From positions 1 through 8,093 of the forward strand of contig JAIFNF010000124.1 in assembly GCA_020047885.1 (NCBI GenBank): DNA of 8,093 nucleotides, written 5' to 3'. The translations under genes and the position numbers were made by a program. The notes beneath the pieces are model-generated. The model saw only the letters and a program-made list of their open reading frames with translations, was not told where the DNA came from and did no database searches. Within the stretch, counting starts at the first letter, position 1. The number at the start of each line of letters is the position of its first letter. The DNA is from Gammaproteobacteria bacterium (GTDB taxonomy: Bacteria > Pseudomonadota > Gammaproteobacteria > Competibacterales > Competibacteraceae). Shown one piece after another: positions 1 to 7,885 of the stretch.

Positions 1-914
1 CGCTGATGGGGCCGGGTTCGTTGCTAGCCGATCCGGTGACGGCGGTTTCCCTGTCACTCGGGCTGATGTTTGGCACCGCCGGTCTGCCGCATATCCTGAT
101 GCGGTTTTTTACCGTGCCCAATGCCAAAGAAGCGCGTAAGAGCGTGTTCGTCGCCACCTTATGTGTCGGCTTCTTCTTCTGCGCAGTGGCCATCATGGGG
201 TTGACGGCCATCACCATCGTCGGCACGCAGCCACAGTATTTCGAGGGCGGTGTGCTCGGGTCCAAGTTATTGGGCGGCAACAACATGCCCGCTATGCATC
301 TGGCTCATGCGGTCGGCGGCAACATGATGCTGGGCTTCCTGTCCGCCGTGGCCTTTGCGACCATTCTCGCCGTGGTGTCCGGACTGGCGCTGGCCGGCGC
401 TTCGGCGATCTCCCATGACCTCTACGCCAACGTGATCCGCAAGGGGCAGGCGACTGAAGCTGAGGAAGTCCGCATGTCCAAGATCTCCTCGCTGGGACTG
501 GGCGTCATTGCCGTGTTGCTCGGGATTGTGTTTGAAAAGCAGAACGTGGCGTTCATGGTCGGCCTGGCTTTCGGCGTCGCGGCATCCTGTAATTTCCCGG
601 TGCTGATCCTGTCCATGTACTGGAAGGGCTTGACCACCCGCGGCGCGATCTGGGGCAGTGTGATTGGCCTGGTGTCGGCGGTGTTGATCGTGGTGTTCTC
701 GAAGGCGGTCTGGGTCGTGGTGCTCGGTAACGAAAAGCCGTTGTTCCCGTATGAACAGCCCGCGATCTTCTCCATGCCGCTGGCGTTCTTCTTTGCCTGG
801 CTGGGTTCGGTGACGGATAGCAGTGCTCGCGCCACTCAGGAGAAAGCCGCGTTCGAAGATCAGTACGTGCGGGCGCAAACCGGCTTCGGCGCGGCCGGCG
901 CAGCAGCGCACTAA
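1..914 (+). CDS. actP: Cation/acetate symporter ActP, C-terminal part (5' end outside the window)
   Basis: This is an inner-membrane sodium:solute symporter (SSS family) that imports acetate and similar short carboxylates. The reading frame is open from the left edge, so the visible ~303 codons are the C-terminal part of a protein that is about 549 residues long in E. coli. The first ATG at position 6 is internal and is not the start. Stretches recalled from E. coli ActP are nearly unchanged: [65 protein letters not shown] and the end motif RAQTGFG. Hydrophobic helices are visible around residues 46-72, 105-135, 160-176, 182-204, 213-240 and 252-268, counting from the Met at position 6. The C-terminal tail is hydrophilic. 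The gene usually follows a DUF485 (yjcH) gene, which would lie to the left of this window. It ends in TAA and converges with the exonuclease fusion gene. Confidence 0.95.
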
Positions 915-1022: not shown

Positions 1023-3179
1023 TCAGTACTTCACTTTCTGGTAAATCTTCTCCGTCGCGGCTCGCGCATCGCCCAGCGTCCGCACCCCTTGCGCCATCAG
1101 TAGCGGAATCATCCGCAGGAACACTTCCCCGGTCACCAGCGCATCGCCCAGCGCCGTATGGCGCGCCAGGATCTTCACGCCCAATCGCCCGCAAATCGCT
1201 TCCAGGGCATGGGATTCCTGATGAGGGTGCAGCACTTCCGACAGGAGCAGCGTATCCAGTACCGGTTGGGTGAAACGGACGCCGGTTGATGCTTCTTTCA
1301 ATTGCAGAAAACGCAGGTCAAACGCAGCGTTATGGGCGATCAGTACGGCATCCGCGCAGTATTCATGGAACTGTGGCAACACGATGTCGATGGTCGGCTG
1401 GCCGCGCAGCATCTCGTTGGAAATGCCATGAATGGTCTGCGACAGCGGATCAATCGGCCGCTTCGGGTCGATCAGTTGTTCGTAAGTCTCATAGCGCAAG
1501 AGGCGGTTGTTGACGATGCGGACTGCGCCGATAGAAATAATCTCATCACCAGCCGTTGGATTCAGGCCAGTCGTCTCGGTATCGAAGATGGTGTACGACA
1601 GCTCGGTCAGCGACCGCTGATCAAGTGCCGACGTCTGGCCGGCCTGGTGGAACAGGTCAAAATCGTAGAACTCCGGTCGGCTTTCCCCGGAACGTGCGAG
1701 CGCACCGGCTACCGGCTGAGTTGGTTGAGCGAGGGGCAACAGCCAGCGAAACAGCGGTTGTTGCCGCGCCTGGTCCACCATGTACACAATCTCCGCCCCA
1801 TGGCGTTCGATGACATCGCGGAAGGAGAGTGGACTTTCTTCACCACCGGCGGTCATCGGATCGGTTTCCCAGCCGTACAGGGTGCGTTGCGAAAGGAACG
1901 GCTCGGTCCAGAGCATGTCCAGTTGCGCAATCCGGGCATGGCGCTCCAGATGGAACTGCAATTCGCGTACCCCGACTTCGTTGAGCAAGCGGCTGGCGAC
2001 ATAGCTGATCGCCTGCACGAGTGTATAGCTGTCCACCTTGACCCACAGTCCTTCATCCGCCGTTTCCAGCAGCGTGGTGATGCCCAGGCGGTTTTCGATG
2101 CGGCGCTGCGCGGCGGCGATCAGGTCTACGCACCGCATTTCTTCCAGCGGCCAGCGGGTTTTCAGGGAATCAGCGTGTTCAGCTATCGTTTGCTCCAATC
2201 GCTCGCTCAGACTACAGGTCTCTTCGTGGATGACCTGCAGGAACCGGTCGCGATGGATGATTTCGCAGTCCGGGTAATGCATCAGGGTTTCCACCGCGGC
2301 GCGAATATTCGCCAGTGCTGAGCGACTGCCATCGGTGAGCGATTGCAGCAGCATATCGCGGGTCGCGTCCACCTCGAAGGTGCGGGTAATGTTCTCCAGG
2401 GTCATGACTAATCCACTGACGACCGGAGGCGATGTTGAGGACAATGGCTGAGTGGCCAGCACCGGTGCCATTTGCACCCGGACAAATTGACCGGCGCGGG
2501 TGGTGATGACGAACTGAGCGGTCGGATCCGCTTCCGCACGTTCCAGGCGGCCTTGCACACGCTCCAGCGCGTGATTCAACTGGTTATGATCGATGATGGC
2601 CGCGATAGAGCGACCCAAGCCGACCAGGGCAGCGGTTCCCTGGTGGTTTCCGCCGAGGGCTTGGCGGGCGCGTTCGTTATAGAGCAGGATGCGGCCATCG
2701 CGGTTGCAGACCAGTACGCCCTGGGATAGCTCGGACATCAGCGCCGCCAGCCGGTTTTTCTCTTCTTCGACCGACGATTTGGCCTGAGCGACCTTGGCTT
2801 CCAGATCACGCGCCAGATTTTCGCTGTATTCCGCCAGATCATTGACCGCCTGCGTCAGCGCCCGGATTTCGGCAGGACTGGACGGTTCGAGACGATGGCT
2901 GGGATGGGCGCTGAGAATAATGCGGATGCCTTCAACGATTTTCAGCGGACCCTTGACGTACTGTTGCCAGGCGACGGCAAAGGCAATGCCGAGAATGGCC
3001 AGCGTCAGCACTTTTAACTCGATCAGCAGCTCCAGTTGCGGGGTCAGCATCGCCAGCAAGTGTTGCTGATTTTCCGGTGCCAAAACGTGGTAGAAGGCGT
3101 AGCCGGCAGCACATTCCAGACCCGCGATCAGCGTCAGAAACCCGGTAAGAGATATAATTATTTTGATATTTTCGTTCAC
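1023..3179 (-). CDS. Membrane-anchored HAMP/PAS/degenerate histidine-kinase protein fused to a DEDDh 3'-5' exonuclease
   Basis: The C-terminal third is a complete DnaQ-like exonuclease. Exo I is DTETTG at 533-538 (Asp533, Glu535), Exo II is HNAAFD at 616-621 (Asp621), and Exo III is His674 with Asp679, so all DEDDh residues are present. The N-terminal part looks like a sensor kinase: transmembrane helices at about 8-31 and 52-72, a HAMP-like linker at 76-125, a charged coiled coil at 120-148 and a PAS-like domain at about 144-265. The region 268-345 aligns in character with a kinase dimerisation domain, but LTDGSRSAL stands where the H-E-x-x-x-P phosphoacceptor box belongs. The ATPase-like region 350-485 has no N-box Asn and no DxGxG motif, although it keeps the terminal IERHG...FRWLLPLA shape. 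It is therefore probably a pseudokinase that senses or dimerises and controls a nuclease, which could act on RNA or single-stranded DNA at the inner membrane. The start is GTG at 3179. An in-frame TAA two codons upstream limits the choice, and no clear Shine-Dalgarno sequence is visible. The first codons are AT-rich. Confidence 0.88.
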   Translation of the reverse strand: MNENIKIIISLTGFLTLIAGLECAAGYAFYHVLAPENQQHLLAMLTPQLELLIELKVLTLAILGIAFAVAWQQYVKGPLKIVEGIRIILSAHPSHRLEPSSPAEIRALTQAVNDLAEYSENLARDLEAKVAQAKSSVEEEKNRLAALMSELSQGVLVCNRDGRILLYNERARQALGGNHQGTAALVGLGRSIAAIIDHNQLNHALERVQGRLERAEADPTAQFVITTRAGQFVRVQMAPVLATQPLSSTSPPVVSGLVMTLENITRTFEVDATRDMLLQSLTDGSRSALANIRAAVETLMHYPDCEIIHRDRFLQVIHEETCSLSERLEQTIAEHADSLKTRWPLEEMRCVDLIAAAQRRIENRLGITTLLETADEGLWVKVDSYTLVQAISYVASRLLNEVGVRELQFHLERHARIAQLDMLWTEPFLSQRTLYGWETDPMTAGGEESPLSFRDVIERHGAEIVYMVDQARQQPLFRWLLPLAQPTQPVAGALARSGESRPEFYDFDLFHQAGQTSALDQRSLTELSYTIFDTETTGLNPTAGDEIISIGAVRIVNNRLLRYETYEQLIDPKRPIDPLSQTIHGISNEMLRGQPTIDIVLPQFHEYCADAVLIAHNAAFDLRFLQLKEASTGVRFTQPVLDTLLLSEVLHPHQESHALEAICGRLGVKILARHTALGDALVTGEVFLRMIPLLMAQGVRTLGDARAATEKIYQKVKY
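3153..3158 (+). promoter_or_regulatory. Possible -10 element (TATAAT) for the rightward operon
   Basis: A perfect TATAAT reads rightward inside the first codons of the leftward exonuclease gene. A weak -35 match, GCGTCA at 3131-3136 (3 of 6 consensus bases), lies 16 bp upstream. Transcripts from here would start near 3165 and carry a leader of about 175 nt before the ATG at 3341. The tract is AT-rich because it encodes Ile and Lys codons, so chance is a serious alternative. Confidence 0.22.
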
Positions 3180-3340
3180 AATTTAAAAATCAGCATTTAA
3201 AAGCGGGTTAAGTGTGGCGTGTTCTTCATAGTGTAGAACCCAGTGCCGGAAAATTTTTATGAAAACCGGCTTTCTAATCCCTAAATCGCCTGGAAGCGTT
3301 TATGGTTATACCGACCCGCTCACTTTTTAGAGGTGAATTC
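3180..3340. promoter_or_regulatory. Divergent intergenic region with a GCCGG-N16-CCGGC inverted repeat
   Basis: These 161 bp separate the leftward exonuclease gene from the rightward DUF4139 operon and are the natural site for both promoters. The region is much richer in A and T than its neighbours. GCCGG (3245-3249) and CCGGC (3266-3270) form an inverted repeat around an AT-rich core containing AAAATTTT, with about 21 bp (two helical turns) between arm centres, which could suit a dimeric regulator. Positions 3307-3312 (TATACC) and 3227-3232 (CATAGT) match four of six -10 bases, but neither has a convincing -35 box. I see no hairpin followed by a T-run and no riboswitch. Confidence 0.4.
3329..3335 (+). 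promoter_or_regulatory. Ribosome binding site deciding the start at 3341
   Basis: AGAGGTG lies six bases upstream of the ATG at 3341. The alternative in-frame ATG at 3302 has no comparable site and would add 13 residues, including two arginines, before the signal peptide. This site therefore favours the shorter protein. Confidence 0.75.
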
Positions 3341-4525
3341 ATGAACCAAACTCGATTGCTCTACCCCTTGGGCGTCCTGCTGCTGCTGGGCATTGGCCCA
3401 CTGGACGCTTTGGCTCGCATCAAACTCACCACCCTGCCGGTGCGGGAACGGGTGCAGATCCATCTCGACCATCCCCAGCTCGCTCTGGTGGAAGAGGAAC
3501 GCATCGTCCCTCTGGTCAAAGGTGTCAATCAGGTCGATTTCTCCTGGGCGAATACCCGCATTGATCCCGATAGCCTGGTGCTGCGCATTCTCCCGACATC
3601 GGGCGATCAGCCACTGGATGCCAAGGTGCTGTCGGTCAGTTATCCACCGAATGAGAACGCCCTGGTCTGGTCGGTTTCGGCCAGCGCCTCGGGTGCGGCG
3701 CGCGTGCGTATCAGTTACGCGCTAGGCGGGTTGAGCAAGGATTTCCATTATCGGGCGGTGGCGGGTCGCGATGAGAAAACTCTGGAACTGGCGCAATACC
3801 TGCGGGTGAATAACCACGCCAATGAAGCTTATGACCTGGCGCAATTCGAGACCGGGATCGGCGCAGAGTTTGAGAAGCCGCTCGGTTTGAACGAGACCAA
3901 GGAAATGGAAATCAACCGCTTCGCCAATATCCCGGTGCATAAGACCTATACCAGCGATCCGGTGAAATTTGGCTATCTCGACCGCGCCCAGGACAAGCTG
4001 AATGTGCCGATGCACTACGTCATCAAGAACGCCGGCGGTTCGTTGGGAAAGGCGGCCTTGCCGGAGGGGAAGGCGCGCATTTTCCAAAATGACGGCAAGG
4101 GCGGTTCGGCCTTCCTCGGCGAGGATCGTGGCACGTTCACTCCCCCTGACGACGAACTGGAACTCTATCTGGGTCTGGCTCGCGACATCGTGGTCAAGCG
4201 CACCATCGACCGCAGCGAGCGGCAGCGCGTCGCGGGCAATCTCTATCGGTACGACGTGACCGTGAAATACGAGATTGAGAATTTCAAGGATGCGCCAGCA
4301 ACGCTGGACATTGTCGAGAGCGTCCGGTACATCCGCGATCAGCTCAACCGCCATGAGCGCGACCCGGAATGGCGACTCGGTGATGGTACGTTACGCAATC
4401 CCGATCCGGAGAAGAGCGACGCCGATAAGCTCCTGTTTCACGTCGATCTACCCGCCCGGCCTGCCGACGGTCCCGCCCCGAAGCAGACACAGACCCTGCG
4501 GCTAACCCTGAATAATGAGTGGTGA
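3341..4525 (+). CDS. Exported DUF4139-type protein, first of a tandem pair
   Basis: The 394-residue product begins with a clear signal peptide: MNQTR, a hydrophobic stretch around 6-19, and probable cleavage after ALA at residue 25. It should be periplasmic or otherwise exported, with no further membrane segment. The body resembles DUF4139 proteins, which also include the MuiA 'mucoidy inhibitor' group, and whose biochemical role is not established. It is a clear paralogue of the next gene. KGVNQVDFSWANTRIDPDS at 60-78 matches KGVNPLQFSWANTLIDPTS, and DEKTLELAQYLRVNN at 144-158 matches DEKTLRLESFVRVKN. The second half keeps the shared order PEGKARIFQNDGKGG (241-255) then ELELYLGLARDIVVKR (272-287), followed by the NLYRYDVTVKYEIEN strand region. 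Compared with its partner it lacks the long charged and Ala/Pro-rich insert and so is shorter. The start at 3341 is chosen over ATG 3302 because of the ribosome binding site and the clean signal peptide. It ends five bases before the next ATG. Confidence 0.82.
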   Translation: MNQTRLLYPLGVLLLLGIGPLDALARIKLTTLPVRERVQIHLDHPQLALVEEERIVPLVKGVNQVDFSWANTRIDPDSLVLRILPTSGDQPLDAKVLSVSYPPNENALVWSVSASASGAARVRISYALGGLSKDFHYRAVAGRDEKTLELAQYLRVNNHANEAYDLAQFETGIGAEFEKPLGLNETKEMEINRFANIPVHKTYTSDPVKFGYLDRAQDKLNVPMHYVIKNAGGSLGKAALPEGKARIFQNDGKGGSAFLGEDRGTFTPPDDELELYLGLARDIVVKRTIDRSERQRVAGNLYRYDVTVKYEIENFKDAPATLDIVESVRYIRDQLNRHERDPEWRLGDGTLRNPDPEKSDADKLLFHVDLPARPADGPAPKQTQTLRLTLNNEW

Positions 4526-4530
4526 GCGCC

Positions 4531-5967
4531 ATGACTCTGAACCGATTGGTCTGCTTCCTCTGGCTGCTGCTTCTGCCGCTGGCGCTACCCGCCCGCAACG
4601 TCGATCTGGCGACCGTTCCCGAACGGCGCACCGTGCAATTGACCATTTACAACTCCGAAGATTTGACCCTGGTGCGAGAAAGCCGGGTCGTGACCTTCAA
4701 AAAGGGCGTCAATCCCCTGCAATTTTCCTGGGCGAATACCCTGATCGATCCGACTTCGGTGGAACTGACTTTCCGGGAACCGAAGACCGGTCTGGAGGTC
4801 GCGGACACCACGTTTCCCCACGACAAACCGCAGATGTTGTACTGGAACGTGCAGAGCGATGCTGACCGTGAGGCGACCATCGAGATCAGCTACTTCACCT
4901 CCGGCATTTCTTGGGCGGCGGATTATCTGGCTATCGCTGACGCCGATGAAAAGACGCTGCGGCTGGAAAGCTTCGTGCGGGTGAAGAATCTCTCCGGTGA
5001 AGATTATGAAAACGCCCAGGTGCGACTGGTAGTCGGCACGATCAATTTGGTGGAGAAAATCGCGGAACTGGCGAAATTGCCGGTCGGGCGACTGAATGAA
5101 CTCAAACGGGAGGAATACCAGGAATTGCGGCAACGAGCCGGACGCAAGGCGATGGCCCCGCCGCCGGCGCCCATGCTCTCCATGGCCGCCGGCATGGTTG
5201 CTGACGCCGCCGAAATGGAAGCGCCCAAGGAAATTATTAAGGAGGGACTGAGCGAGTATTTCATCTACACCATCGAAGGTACGGAGACAGTGCCGACCGG
5301 CTGGGCCAAGCGATTGCGCAGCTTTGAGGCCGACGCCGTGCCGATGACCGTGGAATATCGCTACCGACCCCGGGAATATGGTGATCAGTTGACCCGGTTG
5401 TATTTGTTGAAAAACGACGCAGCTTCCAAACTGGGTAGTACCCCCTTACCGGATGGGGGAATGCAAATCTTCCGCACGAATGTCGGCGGCGGCCTGAATT
5501 ATCTGGCGACGCAAGCGCTGAAATATGTCCCGATTGGCGACAAAATTGAATTAAATCTGGGCGCTGACCGGCTGGTGATTTTTGAACAGGTCAAGCAGAA
5601 GGTTTATCGCGACAACCTGTGGTTCCAGATCAAGGGCGGTAATCTCTACCGCAAACTGGGCGAGGATGGATTCAAGCTGGAATTGGACAGCCAGGTCGCC
5701 GGGTGGGATGAACACACCGTTTACCGGCAGAACATTCGCAATTACAGTCCCAAGCCGATCCATGTGCAGATTCGCCGCCACTATGTGGGTGACATCGTCT
5801 TCCGCAGCCCGCTCAATCCCATCCTGCACGATTTCCAGACCGTGCAGTTCGAGGCCGATATTGCTGCCGGTGAAAAAGCCGGGCTGGATTATGCAGTGGT
5901 CGCCCGGATGGGCTACAACCAGAAGCAGAATCGAATCGAGTTGCAAAGTGGCGAGGCGGGGCGCTGA
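4531..5967 (+). CDS. Exported DUF4139-type protein, second of a tandem pair
   Basis: With the ATG at 4531 the product has 478 residues and a compact signal peptide: MTLNR, a Leu-rich core 6-19, probable cleavage after LPA at 21. Features typical of DUF4139 proteins are visible: an N-terminal beta-rich domain with KKGVNPLQFSWANTLIDPTS (58-76), a central TSGISWAADYLAIAD segment (123-137), a charged probably helical stretch at about 172-206, then a low-complexity Ala/Pro/Met linker at 207-232. A second beta-rich part follows, with SEYFIYTIEGTETVPTGWAK (241-260), LPDGGMQIFRT and IELNLG (339-344). Function is unknown; an envelope role is inferred from export alone. Alternative GTG starts at 4519 and 4522 overlap the upstream stop, but ATG 4531 has GGTGAG at 4521-4526 and gives the better signal peptide. 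The five-base gap to the upstream gene suggests translational coupling. Its 83 extra residues over the first paralogue lie mainly in the helical and low-complexity insert. Confidence 0.84.
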   Translation: MTLNRLVCFLWLLLLPLALPARNVDLATVPERRTVQLTIYNSEDLTLVRESRVVTFKKGVNPLQFSWANTLIDPTSVELTFREPKTGLEVADTTFPHDKPQMLYWNVQSDADREATIEISYFTSGISWAADYLAIADADEKTLRLESFVRVKNLSGEDYENAQVRLVVGTINLVEKIAELAKLPVGRLNELKREEYQELRQRAGRKAMAPPPAPMLSMAAGMVADAAEMEAPKEIIKEGLSEYFIYTIEGTETVPTGWAKRLRSFEADAVPMTVEYRYRPREYGDQLTRLYLLKNDAASKLGSTPLPDGGMQIFRTNVGGGLNYLATQALKYVPIGDKIELNLGADRLVIFEQVKQKVYRDNLWFQIKGGNLYRKLGEDGFKLELDSQVAGWDEHTVYRQNIRNYSPKPIHVQIRRHYVGDIVFRSPLNPILHDFQTVQFEADIAAGEKAGLDYAVVARMGYNQKQNRIELQSGEAGR

Positions 5968-6009: not shown

Positions 6010-7125
6010 ATGAATGTGGAAACTGTTGAAGCGGTTGTGATCGGCGCTGGCGTGATCGGATTAGCGATTGCCAGAGCGCTGGCGCTGGCGGGTCGTGAGG
6101 TGCTGATTCTGGAAGCAGCGGAGCGATTCGGTACGCAGACCTCGTCACGCAATTCCGAAGTCATTCATGCGGGTCTGTATTACCCGCCCGGTTCGTGGAA
6201 AGCCCGTCTGTGCCTGGCCGGCAAGGCACAGCTTTACCGCTATTGCACCGAGCGCGGCATTGCGCATCGCGCCATCGGCAAGGTGCTGGTCGCCTGCGAT
6301 GCCATGGAATTGTCGATGCTGGCCGCTTACGCCGAACGGGCTGCTGCGAATGGCGTTCCCCTGCAATCACTGACCGCTGCGGAAATTCGGGGTCTGGAAC
6401 CGGCAGTTCACGCGCTGGCCGGTCTTTATTCGCCCACGACCGGTATTCTGGACAGCCACGGATTCATGCTGGCGCTGCTAGGTGATGCCGAACAGGCAGG
6501 AGCAACGCTGGCGACCCGAACACCGGTTATTGGAGGACGCATCACCGCCAGCGGGATGGTGTTGCACACCGGTGGCGAGGCCCCGTGGCGTTTGCAGAGC
6601 CGGATCGTGATCAATGCCGCCGGGCTGTTTGCCCAGGACGTAGCGCGGCGCATTACAGGATTTCCATTGGCCTGCATTCCGCCGACCTTTTACGCTAAGG
6701 GTCACTATTTCACGCTCAGCGGGCGGACGCCGTTCCAGCATCTGGTCTACCCGATGCCGGATCACGCGGGGCTGGGCATTCACGCGACGCTCGATCTGGG
6801 CGGACAGTGCAAGTTTGGCCCGGATGTCAGCGGTTGGCCGACCACTCCGGACTATGCGTTCGAGACCGGGCTGGAGGCCAAATTCTACCGGGCCATCCGG
6901 CGTTATTATCCCGATCTGGCGGATGGAACGCTCCAGCCCGGCTATACCGGCCTTCGGCCCAAGATCACCGGGCCGACCGAAGCCGCTGGCGATTTCCTGA
7001 TCCAGGGGCCAGCAGCGCATGGCGTCCCCGGACTGGTGAACCTGTTTGGCATGGAATCGCCCGGACTGACCGCCGCACTGGCCATCGCGACCGAGGTGGC
7101 GGGCTTGACCTCTTCCTCACCTTGA
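6010..7125 (+). CDS. FAD-dependent oxidoreductase of the DAO superfamily, L-2-hydroxyglutarate dehydrogenase-like (COG0579 type)
   Basis: The 371-residue product is a soluble flavoprotein. An N-terminal Rossmann FAD-binding site is plain: VVIGAGVIGLAIARAL at 9-24, with Gly12, Gly14 and Gly17, and Glu35 at the end of the second strand for the adenosine ribose. TSSRNSEVIHAGLYYPPGS (44-62) is close to the HNSGVIHAGVYYTPGS block of E. coli LhgO, as recalled. The end of the protein has GYTGLRPKITGP (311-322), then FLIQGP and NLFGMESPGLTAALA (344-358), the usual closing flavin-contact region of this family. The expected reaction is oxidation of a 2-hydroxy acid to the 2-keto acid, passing electrons to a quinone or oxygen. 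The substrate cannot be read from the sequence, so lhgO is not assigned; the protein is also shorter than E. coli LhgO (about 420 residues). The start is supported by the AGGAGGAGGGG tract at 5994-6004. It probably shares a transcript with the DUF4139 genes upstream and the FFLEELY gene 28 bp downstream. Confidence 0.88.
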   Translation: MNVETVEAVVIGAGVIGLAIARALALAGREVLILEAAERFGTQTSSRNSEVIHAGLYYPPGSWKARLCLAGKAQLYRYCTERGIAHRAIGKVLVACDAMELSMLAAYAERAAANGVPLQSLTAAEIRGLEPAVHALAGLYSPTTGILDSHGFMLALLGDAEQAGATLATRTPVIGGRITASGMVLHTGGEAPWRLQSRIVINAAGLFAQDVARRITGFPLACIPPTFYAKGHYFTLSGRTPFQHLVYPMPDHAGLGIHATLDLGGQCKFGPDVSGWPTTPDYAFETGLEAKFYRAIRRYYPDLADGTLQPGYTGLRPKITGPTEAAGDFLIQGPAAHGVPGLVNLFGMESPGLTAALAIATEVAGLTSSSP

Positions 7126-7153: not shown

Positions 7154-7885
7154 ATGAGCCATCAAGCCCCCTGCGACGACACTACGACACTGCTCGAACA
7201 ATTACGCCGTAGCCAGGCCTTTCACCAGGGCGGCGTGGCCGGGATAGAGCAGCAATTCAAATGCCTGCAGCGCTGGCAATCGGCGCGACTGGCTCGCACC
7301 TATGCCGATGTGCTGAACAGCGCCCGCTACCGGTCTGCGGCTGAATTTTTTCTGGAGGAGCTGTATGGCGACCGGGATTTCCGCCAGCGCGAACAGGATC
7401 TCGCCCGTATCGTCCCCATGCTGACCCGGATTTTGCCGGCTGGTGTACTGCACACCACCGCGCTGGCGCTGGAGTTGAACGCTCTGTCCTACGAACTTGA
7501 TGCCGAGATGACGCGAACGCTGGTTATCGACTTTCGCTTTCAGGAAACACTCGACGAAGCGACATACACCGCTGCCTACCGCCAGTGCGCCCGCTATGAA
7601 CTGCGCGCTCGTCAGATTGATCTGGTTGAACAACTCGGCCAGGATCTGCAACAAATTGTCCGCAAAAACTTTATCGATGTAGCACTGAAGCTGGCTAAAA
7701 CGCCAGCGCGGTTGGCGGGCGTCGGGGAGTTGCACCATTTCCTGGAGACCGGCTTTTACGCCTTCCGCCAGATGGGATCTGATGCCGGGACGTTTATCGC
7801 CACCATTACCCGCCGTGAACAAGACCTGATGGAACGGATGCGCACCGGCCATCCGCAACCGTTGGCCGGGACGCCGGGCGGTTAA
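7154..7885 (+). CDS. FFLEELY-motif protein of unknown function
   Basis: The 243-residue product has no signal peptide or transmembrane helix and looks almost wholly alpha-helical. It carries RYRSAAEFFLEELYGDRDF at 58-76, the signature of a conserved proteobacterial family that I recognise only by that motif (RY..A..FFLEELYG..DF..R). The following RIVPMLTRILP segment (85-95) and ALELNALSYELDAEM (105-119) also fit this family. No catalytic motif is visible and the biochemical role is unknown. The ATG at 7154 has only a weak upstream site; AAGGACAGGA at 7126-7135 is 18 bases away, which is too far for normal use. The 28-bp gap from the oxidoreductase gene suggests co-transcription. The stop codon TAA (7883-7885) overlaps the stop of the opposing PHA-system gene, so any terminator must lie inside that gene. 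Confidence 0.8.
   Translation: MSHQAPCDDTTTLLEQLRRSQAFHQGGVAGIEQQFKCLQRWQSARLARTYADVLNSARYRSAAEFFLEELYGDRDFRQREQDLARIVPMLTRILPAGVLHTTALALELNALSYELDAEMTRTLVIDFRFQETLDEATYTAAYRQCARYELRARQIDLVEQLGQDLQQIVRKNFIDVALKLAKTPARLAGVGELHHFLETGFYAFRQMGSDAGTFIATITRREQDLMERMRTGHPQPLAGTPGG

Follow-up and report, generated by a model that had tools for sequence, protein, structure and literature searches.

What does a protein do that is built like a membrane-bound sensor kinase and ends in an exonuclease? The question is raised by an open reading frame at positions 1023..3179, on the minus strand, of an 8,093-nucleotide stretch of DNA (the window; contig JAIFNF010000124.1 of assembly GCA_020047885.1, from a gammaproteobacterium of the Competibacteraceae). 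The gene starts with GTG at 3179 and encodes 718 residues, which the frame itself, Pfam, the relatives and substitution rates identify as a transmembrane, PAS, pseudokinase and DEDDh exonuclease protein. Several database sources call it 'DNA polymerase III subunit epsilon'. It is almost certainly a sensor-shaped pseudokinase joined to an intact nuclease, and its relatives belong to a module of an SSS symporter, an SSS-histidine kinase, a single-domain response regulator and a CBS-DUF294 nucleotidyltransferase. Coupling in function to the DUF294 protein and the symporter is very probable. We tentatively propose that the nuclease removes nucleotides that the DUF294 protein attaches to another protein.

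The gene was first noted in a preliminary description, made from the DNA letters alone, which gave the frame exactly, leaving its strand unsaid, and numbered the five catalytic residues correctly (D533, E535, D621, H674 and D679). Its two transmembrane helices and its PAS and kinase-shaped core are likewise borne out. Hydropathy places the helices at residues 5-26 (3102..3167) and 48-75 (2955..3038), with no stretch over the cut-off beyond residue 100, and an AlphaFold model (80 sequences) has helices at 3-32 and 35-90. The HAMP match is weak (E 0.021, partial, below its own Pfam cut-off). A coil (residues 103-150) leads to the PAS domain (149-263, 2391..2735; 154-263 in the model), where Pfam finds PAS_7 at residues 149-240 with E 2.7e-5 and 24.7 bits, below the cut-off of 27. 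The model then shows a DHp-like helical hairpin (265-339, 2163..2387), a CA/HATPase-like domain (346-484, 1728..2144), a low-confidence segment (488-502) and the exonuclease domain (529-717, 1029..1595), in which RNase_T (PF00929) matches residues 531-687 with E 9.4e-33. The mean predicted local distance difference score is 82.5; the predicted template modeling score of the full model is low (0.39), and we therefore leave the domain arrangement uninterpreted.

Conservation was followed in an alignment of 93 rows: the window protein, the first 80 relatives (those used out of 380 confirmed) and 12 more, 4 plasmid-borne and 8 from further genomes. A signature linker ahead of the nuclease, RPEFYDFDLF (residues 501-510, 1650..1679), is unchanged in 82 rows. 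C158 of the PAS domain is present in 90, possibly as a redox or cofactor site. The gene is under purifying selection: nonsynonymous (Ka) and synonymous (Ks) rates are 0.045 and 0.588 against a 91% relative and 0.109 and 0.979 against an 82% relative, and in comparisons with four relatives Ka is well under Ks for every part tested. Since full-length relatives also exist, a mis-called frame is ruled out.

The DHp and CA folds are present by descent. Aligned by hhalign to the intact SSS-kinase core from the same loci, the DHp/CA region of the window protein scores a probability of 98.4 (E 5.9e-15), the CA part by itself 91.6 (E 8.1e-7), and the control, the transporter part of the same SSS-kinase, 1.1. 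Foldseek matches the sensor core to WalK at 1.2e-20; the sensor-part matches are Foldseek's, as the VIA structure comparison tests well only residues 517-711. Among the best 120 listed of 3964 matches to residues 1-500, 117 carry PF00929 and none HisKA or HATPase_c. The loss of the phosphoacceptor His, the N box and the G boxes had been recognized from the first, and the relatives extend it. At the phosphoacceptor position (D283 in the window protein, codon 2331..2333) the 93 rows have Glu in 69, Asp in 16, Gln in 3 and other residues in 5. Thus 85 rows are acidic and none has His, which rules out a working kinase. Where the intact kinase has its N box, DNGPG and GTGLGL, the window protein has non-matching residues, and in the displayed rows of relatives neither N nor G boxes can be recognized.

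A pseudokinase of this kind is known in Caulobacter. DivL combines PAS with a DHp/CA fold and lacks the phosphoacceptor His, having Tyr at that site in contrast to the Glu or Asp seen here; to our knowledge it has no enzymatic output domain. We claim no orthology, only a possible likeness in the reading of a single-domain regulator. In DivL an arginine three residues after the phosphoacceptor site is reported as needed for DivK binding (PMC4211667, in the part cited here). The present family has an arginine at the same offset, R286, in 92 of 93 rows.

The output domain has an RNase H-like exonuclease fold in the model, and its DEDDh residues, noted at the outset as intact in this protein, are kept in close relatives too: D, E, D, H and D in 81/81, 81/81, 80/81, 80/81 and 80/81 rows of the smaller set, where the gap fits L016, a locus cut by a contig end. 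In the 93 rows each of the five is kept in 91-92, the exceptions being the gapped row that fits L016 and L139. The latter (509-2737) is a long-form frame, long form meaning sensor plus exonuclease, with the sensor region kept and no recognizable nuclease. RNase T and ERI, DEDDh enzymes that act on RNA, are among the structural matches. They lend some support to an RNA-end switch or messenger RNA (mRNA) decay, in which the membrane exonuclease would trim RNA 3' ends (transfer RNA, or mRNAs of acetate/pyruvate metabolism) and the DUF294 protein would add nucleotides to the same RNA. We consider this unlikely, for reasons given below.

With which genes does the family keep company? Around the 80 relatives, an SSS-histidine kinase lies within 3.5 kb in 42 loci, DUF294 within 6 kb in 44 and an ActP-like symporter within 8 kb in 42. 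Of the 77 loci with room for scoring it, 43 have a same-strand response regulator no more than 450 bp upstream. At least one of the four partners is found in 71 of 80. The regulators are single-domain proteins (0-5 residues past the domain in 44 of 45 extracted). On a Paracoccus yeei plasmid the order is acs, DUF485, actP, DUF294, regulator, exonuclease; in Marivivens acs, DUF4212, symporter, DUF294, hypothetical, regulator, exonuclease; and in P. denitrificans DUF294, hypothetical, kinase, regulator, exonuclease. acs is thus present in two annotated loci, L082 and L083. The protein between DUF294 and the regulator in Marivivens (L082, 6811-7299) has 162 residues and no Pfam match at E 0.001.

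The initial notion of a one-protein signaling system is not supported by this comparison, as many relatives adjoin an SSS-histidine kinase that is itself intact, along with a single-domain regulator, an ActP-type symporter and a CBS-DUF294 nucleotidyltransferase; the signal may also come through the regulator. A self-contained membrane receptor, whose ligand alone gates nucleic-acid degradation with neither regulator nor writer, now seems quite improbable. In its favor is the clade of the window (18 loci, L001-L017 and L019), where only actP/DUF485 adjoins this paralogue, together with two loci, L162 (5319-6743) and L163 (3601-5049), whose proteins have the transmembrane part, PAS and exonuclease but no DHp/CA region. 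Those two lie in a DUF4212, symporter, DUF294, exonuclease cluster with no regulator in view, as would fit a regulator that docks on DHp. The regulator directly upstream in over half of the scored loci speaks against self-containment, and so does the link to DUF294 in whole genomes.

That link is near-obligate. Across 299 genomes of the phylum (family at E <= 1e-60, DUF294 at E <= 1e-15, at most 3 family candidates per genome scored), the family occurs in 41, and DUF294 in all 41 of these as against 68 of the 258 family-negative genomes (Fisher p 3e-21, species not being independent). A listed DUF294 place lies within 8 kb of 35 of the 42 family places. Among 143 genomes of the class, DUF294 is found in 7 of 8 long-form genomes (p 0.001), the eighth being G057, whose copy is L139. 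Viewed from the other side, 55 DUF294 places in class genomes have an ActP-like symporter within 6 kb in 42 cases and a DEDDh exonuclease within 4 kb in 34: 31 short (stop-to-stop frames holding neither sensor nor DUF294 domain), 2 fused, one of them poorly aligned, and 1 long. A rough reckoning, from up to 23 first-look candidates per genome, about 8 kb searched and genomes of 2-5 Mb, puts the chance expectation at about a tenth at most. In L087 (4825-6924, minus strand) exonuclease, CBS and DUF294 form a single polypeptide adjoining an ActP-like symporter. It led to a fused family in which PF00929 and PF03445 occur together in 118 of 120 listed members and both catalytic sets are invariant in 55 aligned proteins. 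A further exonuclease-CBS-DUF294 protein, in L133 (4856-6970, plus strand), has most DEDDh residues missing and a poorly aligned nuclease part; it is a single row of uncertain alignment.

Could the protein nonetheless be what its database name says, a DNA exonuclease for repair, proofreading or defense? We regard this as most improbable. The membrane anchor and the linkage to acetate uptake genes stand against it, as does a tree of 88 exonuclease domains (the L133 row left out). There, 16 generic DEDDh domains from genomes of this kind (presumably DnaQ and the like) are separated from the rest by one branch (93/88). Other branches set apart the 33 long forms together with one short form (98/96), the 8 fused forms (100/99) and 29 of the 31 short forms (96/94). 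Because the generic rows stand apart, the DUF294-linked exonucleases may have a single origin. The family thus differs from the exonuclease domain of PolC or DnaQ epsilon in its membrane sensor fusion, its acetate-uptake context and its distinct branch, and plain DnaQ was set aside on gene context and tree. An anti-phage system was set aside too: PADLOC gave DEDDh-domain matches only, in the window protein and the fused protein, and none for DUF294; neighbors were not scanned.

The nature of the partner bears on what the substrate may be. Modeled from 38 sequences, out of 46 loci with a DUF294 match, the DUF294 protein shows a nucleotidyltransferase fold with a helical C-terminal domain and has the GS and DxD motifs. 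The best structural matches of the nucleotidyltransferase part are GlnE domains, with 1v4a, the N-terminal half of GlnE, at the top; the partner thus models as a GlnE-type adenylyltransferase. A sequence search against solved structures returned proteins with CBS domains, enzymes that contain CBS, and some chance matches with E above 0.4; no nucleotidyltransferase was named among them. GlnE acts on protein, which counts against a shared RNA substrate, and by Pfam neither the window protein nor two DUF294 proteins have an RNA-binding domain. The CBS pair of the DUF294 protein matches nucleotide-bound CBS structures, which would also suit turnover of a signal nucleotide, the DUF294 protein making and the DEDDh domain destroying a small nucleotide or oligonucleotide messenger. 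The DEDDh group includes oligoribonuclease, and the domain order of the long form resembles that of GdpP, which has two transmembrane helices, PAS, a degenerate GGDEF domain and a DHH-DHHA1 phosphodiesterase. The likeness is one of layout: here DHp/CA and DEDDh take the place of degenerate GGDEF and DHH-DHHA1, and Pfam finds no DHH-DHHA1 in the window protein at E up to 1. As the best rows for the nucleotidyltransferase part are GlnE and not a known messenger synthase, we think a messenger very unlikely.

The two enzymes probably act in concert or in opposition. Many genomes encode a phosphodiesterase alongside a nucleotidyltransferase whose fold is known from protein adenylylation, and some fuse the two, which suggests a writer and an eraser; we infer the direction of the two activities, a protein target and docking of the regulator. 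The CBS-DUF294 protein would nucleotidylate some component of the pathway that takes up or activates monocarboxylates (acetate/pyruvate); ActP, its small DUF485/DUF4212 partner and Acs are candidates. The DEDDh domain would hydrolyze the phosphodiester of the nucleotidylated target and release a 5'-nucleotide, and the membrane/PAS part with the dead histidine-kinase core would gate it. Where a regulator is encoded beside the gene, it would presumably be phosphorylated by the neighboring SSS-histidine kinase and dock on DHp, as DivK~P does on DivL. By this analogy we would give docking an even chance. That the protein erases nucleotidylation, the core of the proposal, we hold with somewhat less assurance. 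The whole is more tentative still: a DEDDh protein de-nucleotidylase whose opponent is a GlnE-fold CBS-DUF294 protein, whose substrate is a transporter of monocarboxylates or the partner of that transporter, and whose gate is a dead kinase reading a regulator's phosphorylation state. A nucleotidylated protein is nevertheless the substrate that we prefer, in addition to the DNA, RNA or short oligonucleotides considered originally.

DEDDh enzymes free a 5'-nucleoside monophosphate from a terminal nucleotide whose 5' phosphate joins an alcohol, and AMP-tyrosine is of this shape. Among known reversible systems, GlnE and GlnD each combine a pair of opposed activities in a single polypeptide, which would also be the case for the exonuclease-CBS-DUF294 proteins, and GlnE shares its fold with the modeled DUF294 partner. 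Their targets are glutamine synthetase and PII, and for erasure GlnE uses a second nucleotidyltransferase-fold domain and GlnD an HD domain, in neither case DEDDh. DnaQ epsilon is reported to hydrolyze the p-nitrophenyl ester of thymidine monophosphate (PMC7694242, in the part cited here).

Genetic data exist for what seems to be the same pair in Pseudomonas putida. In the sections of PMC9927547 cited here and below, PP_0353, an RNase_T exonuclease gene, follows the CBS-domain gene PP_0354 in the same operon, within the MxtR/ErdR (CrbS/CrbR) regulon, and homologues adjoin actP/yjcH in P. aeruginosa PAO1 and P. fluorescens NCTC10783. A CrbS/R-controlled protein of P. fluorescens, Pflu5625, similarly has cNMP, CBS and nucleotidyltransferase domains (PMC5715377, in its cited part). 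The present family resembles that regulon in lying with SSS-kinase, actP and acs in relatives; CrbR is LuxR-type, in contrast to the single-domain regulators here. pp_0353 is needed for normal growth on pyruvate and pp_0354 is not; loss of actP-I also impairs pyruvate growth, and on 20 mM acetate all three are dispensable (PMC9927547). Should the mark inhibit ActP, a strain without the eraser would behave like one without ActP, and a strain without the writer would be unharmed, so these data fit a writer and an eraser. The authors suggest mRNA degradation for pp_0353 (PMC9927547), in keeping with the RNA alternative, which does not predict the asymmetry between the two genes.

Several observations weigh against the reading we favor. 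PP_0353 is likened to the family by description, not sequence: it has RNase_T and follows a CBS gene, and in other strains actP/yjcH is close by. The cited sections of PMC9927547 mention nothing in it that resembles a sensor or kinase, and deletion of pp_0353 or pp_0354 leaves growth on 20 mM acetate or succinate unaffected (PMC9927547). In nine of the 80 loci, some at contig ends, all four partners are missing from the distances searched. L164 and L165 have no regulator and yet keep at least part of the sensor core; L083 keeps the regulator although its DHp is shortened. In the window's own clade the regulator is upstream of this paralogue in 0 of 18 loci, regulator and kinase adjoin the other paralogue instead, and DUF294 is seen in L001 only, next to a second copy. 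The 68 family-negative genomes with DUF294 show that the long form is not required for DUF294; scoring three candidates per genome may have missed some family members, and in 4 of the 41 family genomes (G213, G245, G280 and G380) the match spans the exonuclease part only. The third acidic site residue is Glu instead of Asp in 22 of the 31 short exonucleases beside DUF294 (e.g., L094, 8028-8771). Nuclease activity and substrate are predictions for all members, and we know of no DEDDh enzyme that de-nucleotidylates a protein. The N-terminal half of GlnE, the best DUF294 match, is the half that we take to be de-adenylylating, so the DUF294 protein might write and erase alone.

Within the window, the acetate-module partner seen is actP only, the 3' part of a cation/acetate symporter gene (3..914, plus strand; Pfam/NCBIfam) whose 3' end is convergent with the exonuclease gene. 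An ACTU-like pattern derived from four printed sites has no match in the window, which is without the actP promoter, as against 2.5 expected by chance. ActP and/or DUF485 stands beside this paralogue in 17 of the 18 clade loci; L015 starts inside the gene and shows none. All six clade genomes searched have 2 or 3 copies of the family, and the second copy is flanked by regulator and SSS-kinase in five further loci (L156-L160), likewise in L086 and L091. Divergent from the exonuclease gene are two consecutive DUF4139-like proteins (3302-4525 and 4519-5967, plus strand; Pfam matches under cut-off), found again among the 80 loci only in L002. They are followed, also on the plus strand, by an FAD-dependent oxidoreductase (6010-7125) whose best NCBIfam match, under cut-off, is L-2-hydroxyglutarate oxidase, and by an FFLEELY-motif protein (7154-7885; Pfam/NCBIfam).

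In open-licence PubMed Central we found no description of a sensor-pseudokinase exonuclease or of such an enzyme paired with DUF294, and nothing on 'VC0299' or on DUF294 with acetate and exonuclease; nearest are the papers on P. putida and P. fluorescens. The combination of two known kinds of control, pseudokinase signaling and reversible nucleotidylation, thus appears undescribed in that literature. The name 'DNA polymerase III subunit epsilon' hides a signaling system present in 41 of the 299 phylum genomes sampled. Our proposal offers an explanation for a result in the cited part of PMC9927547, that P. putida depends on a putative exonuclease to grow normally on pyruvate. If the proposal is true, uptake of acetate and pyruvate would be under a reversible nucleotidylation switch whose eraser is of a new kind, and the output of a two-component pathway would be a phosphodiesterase, not transcription.
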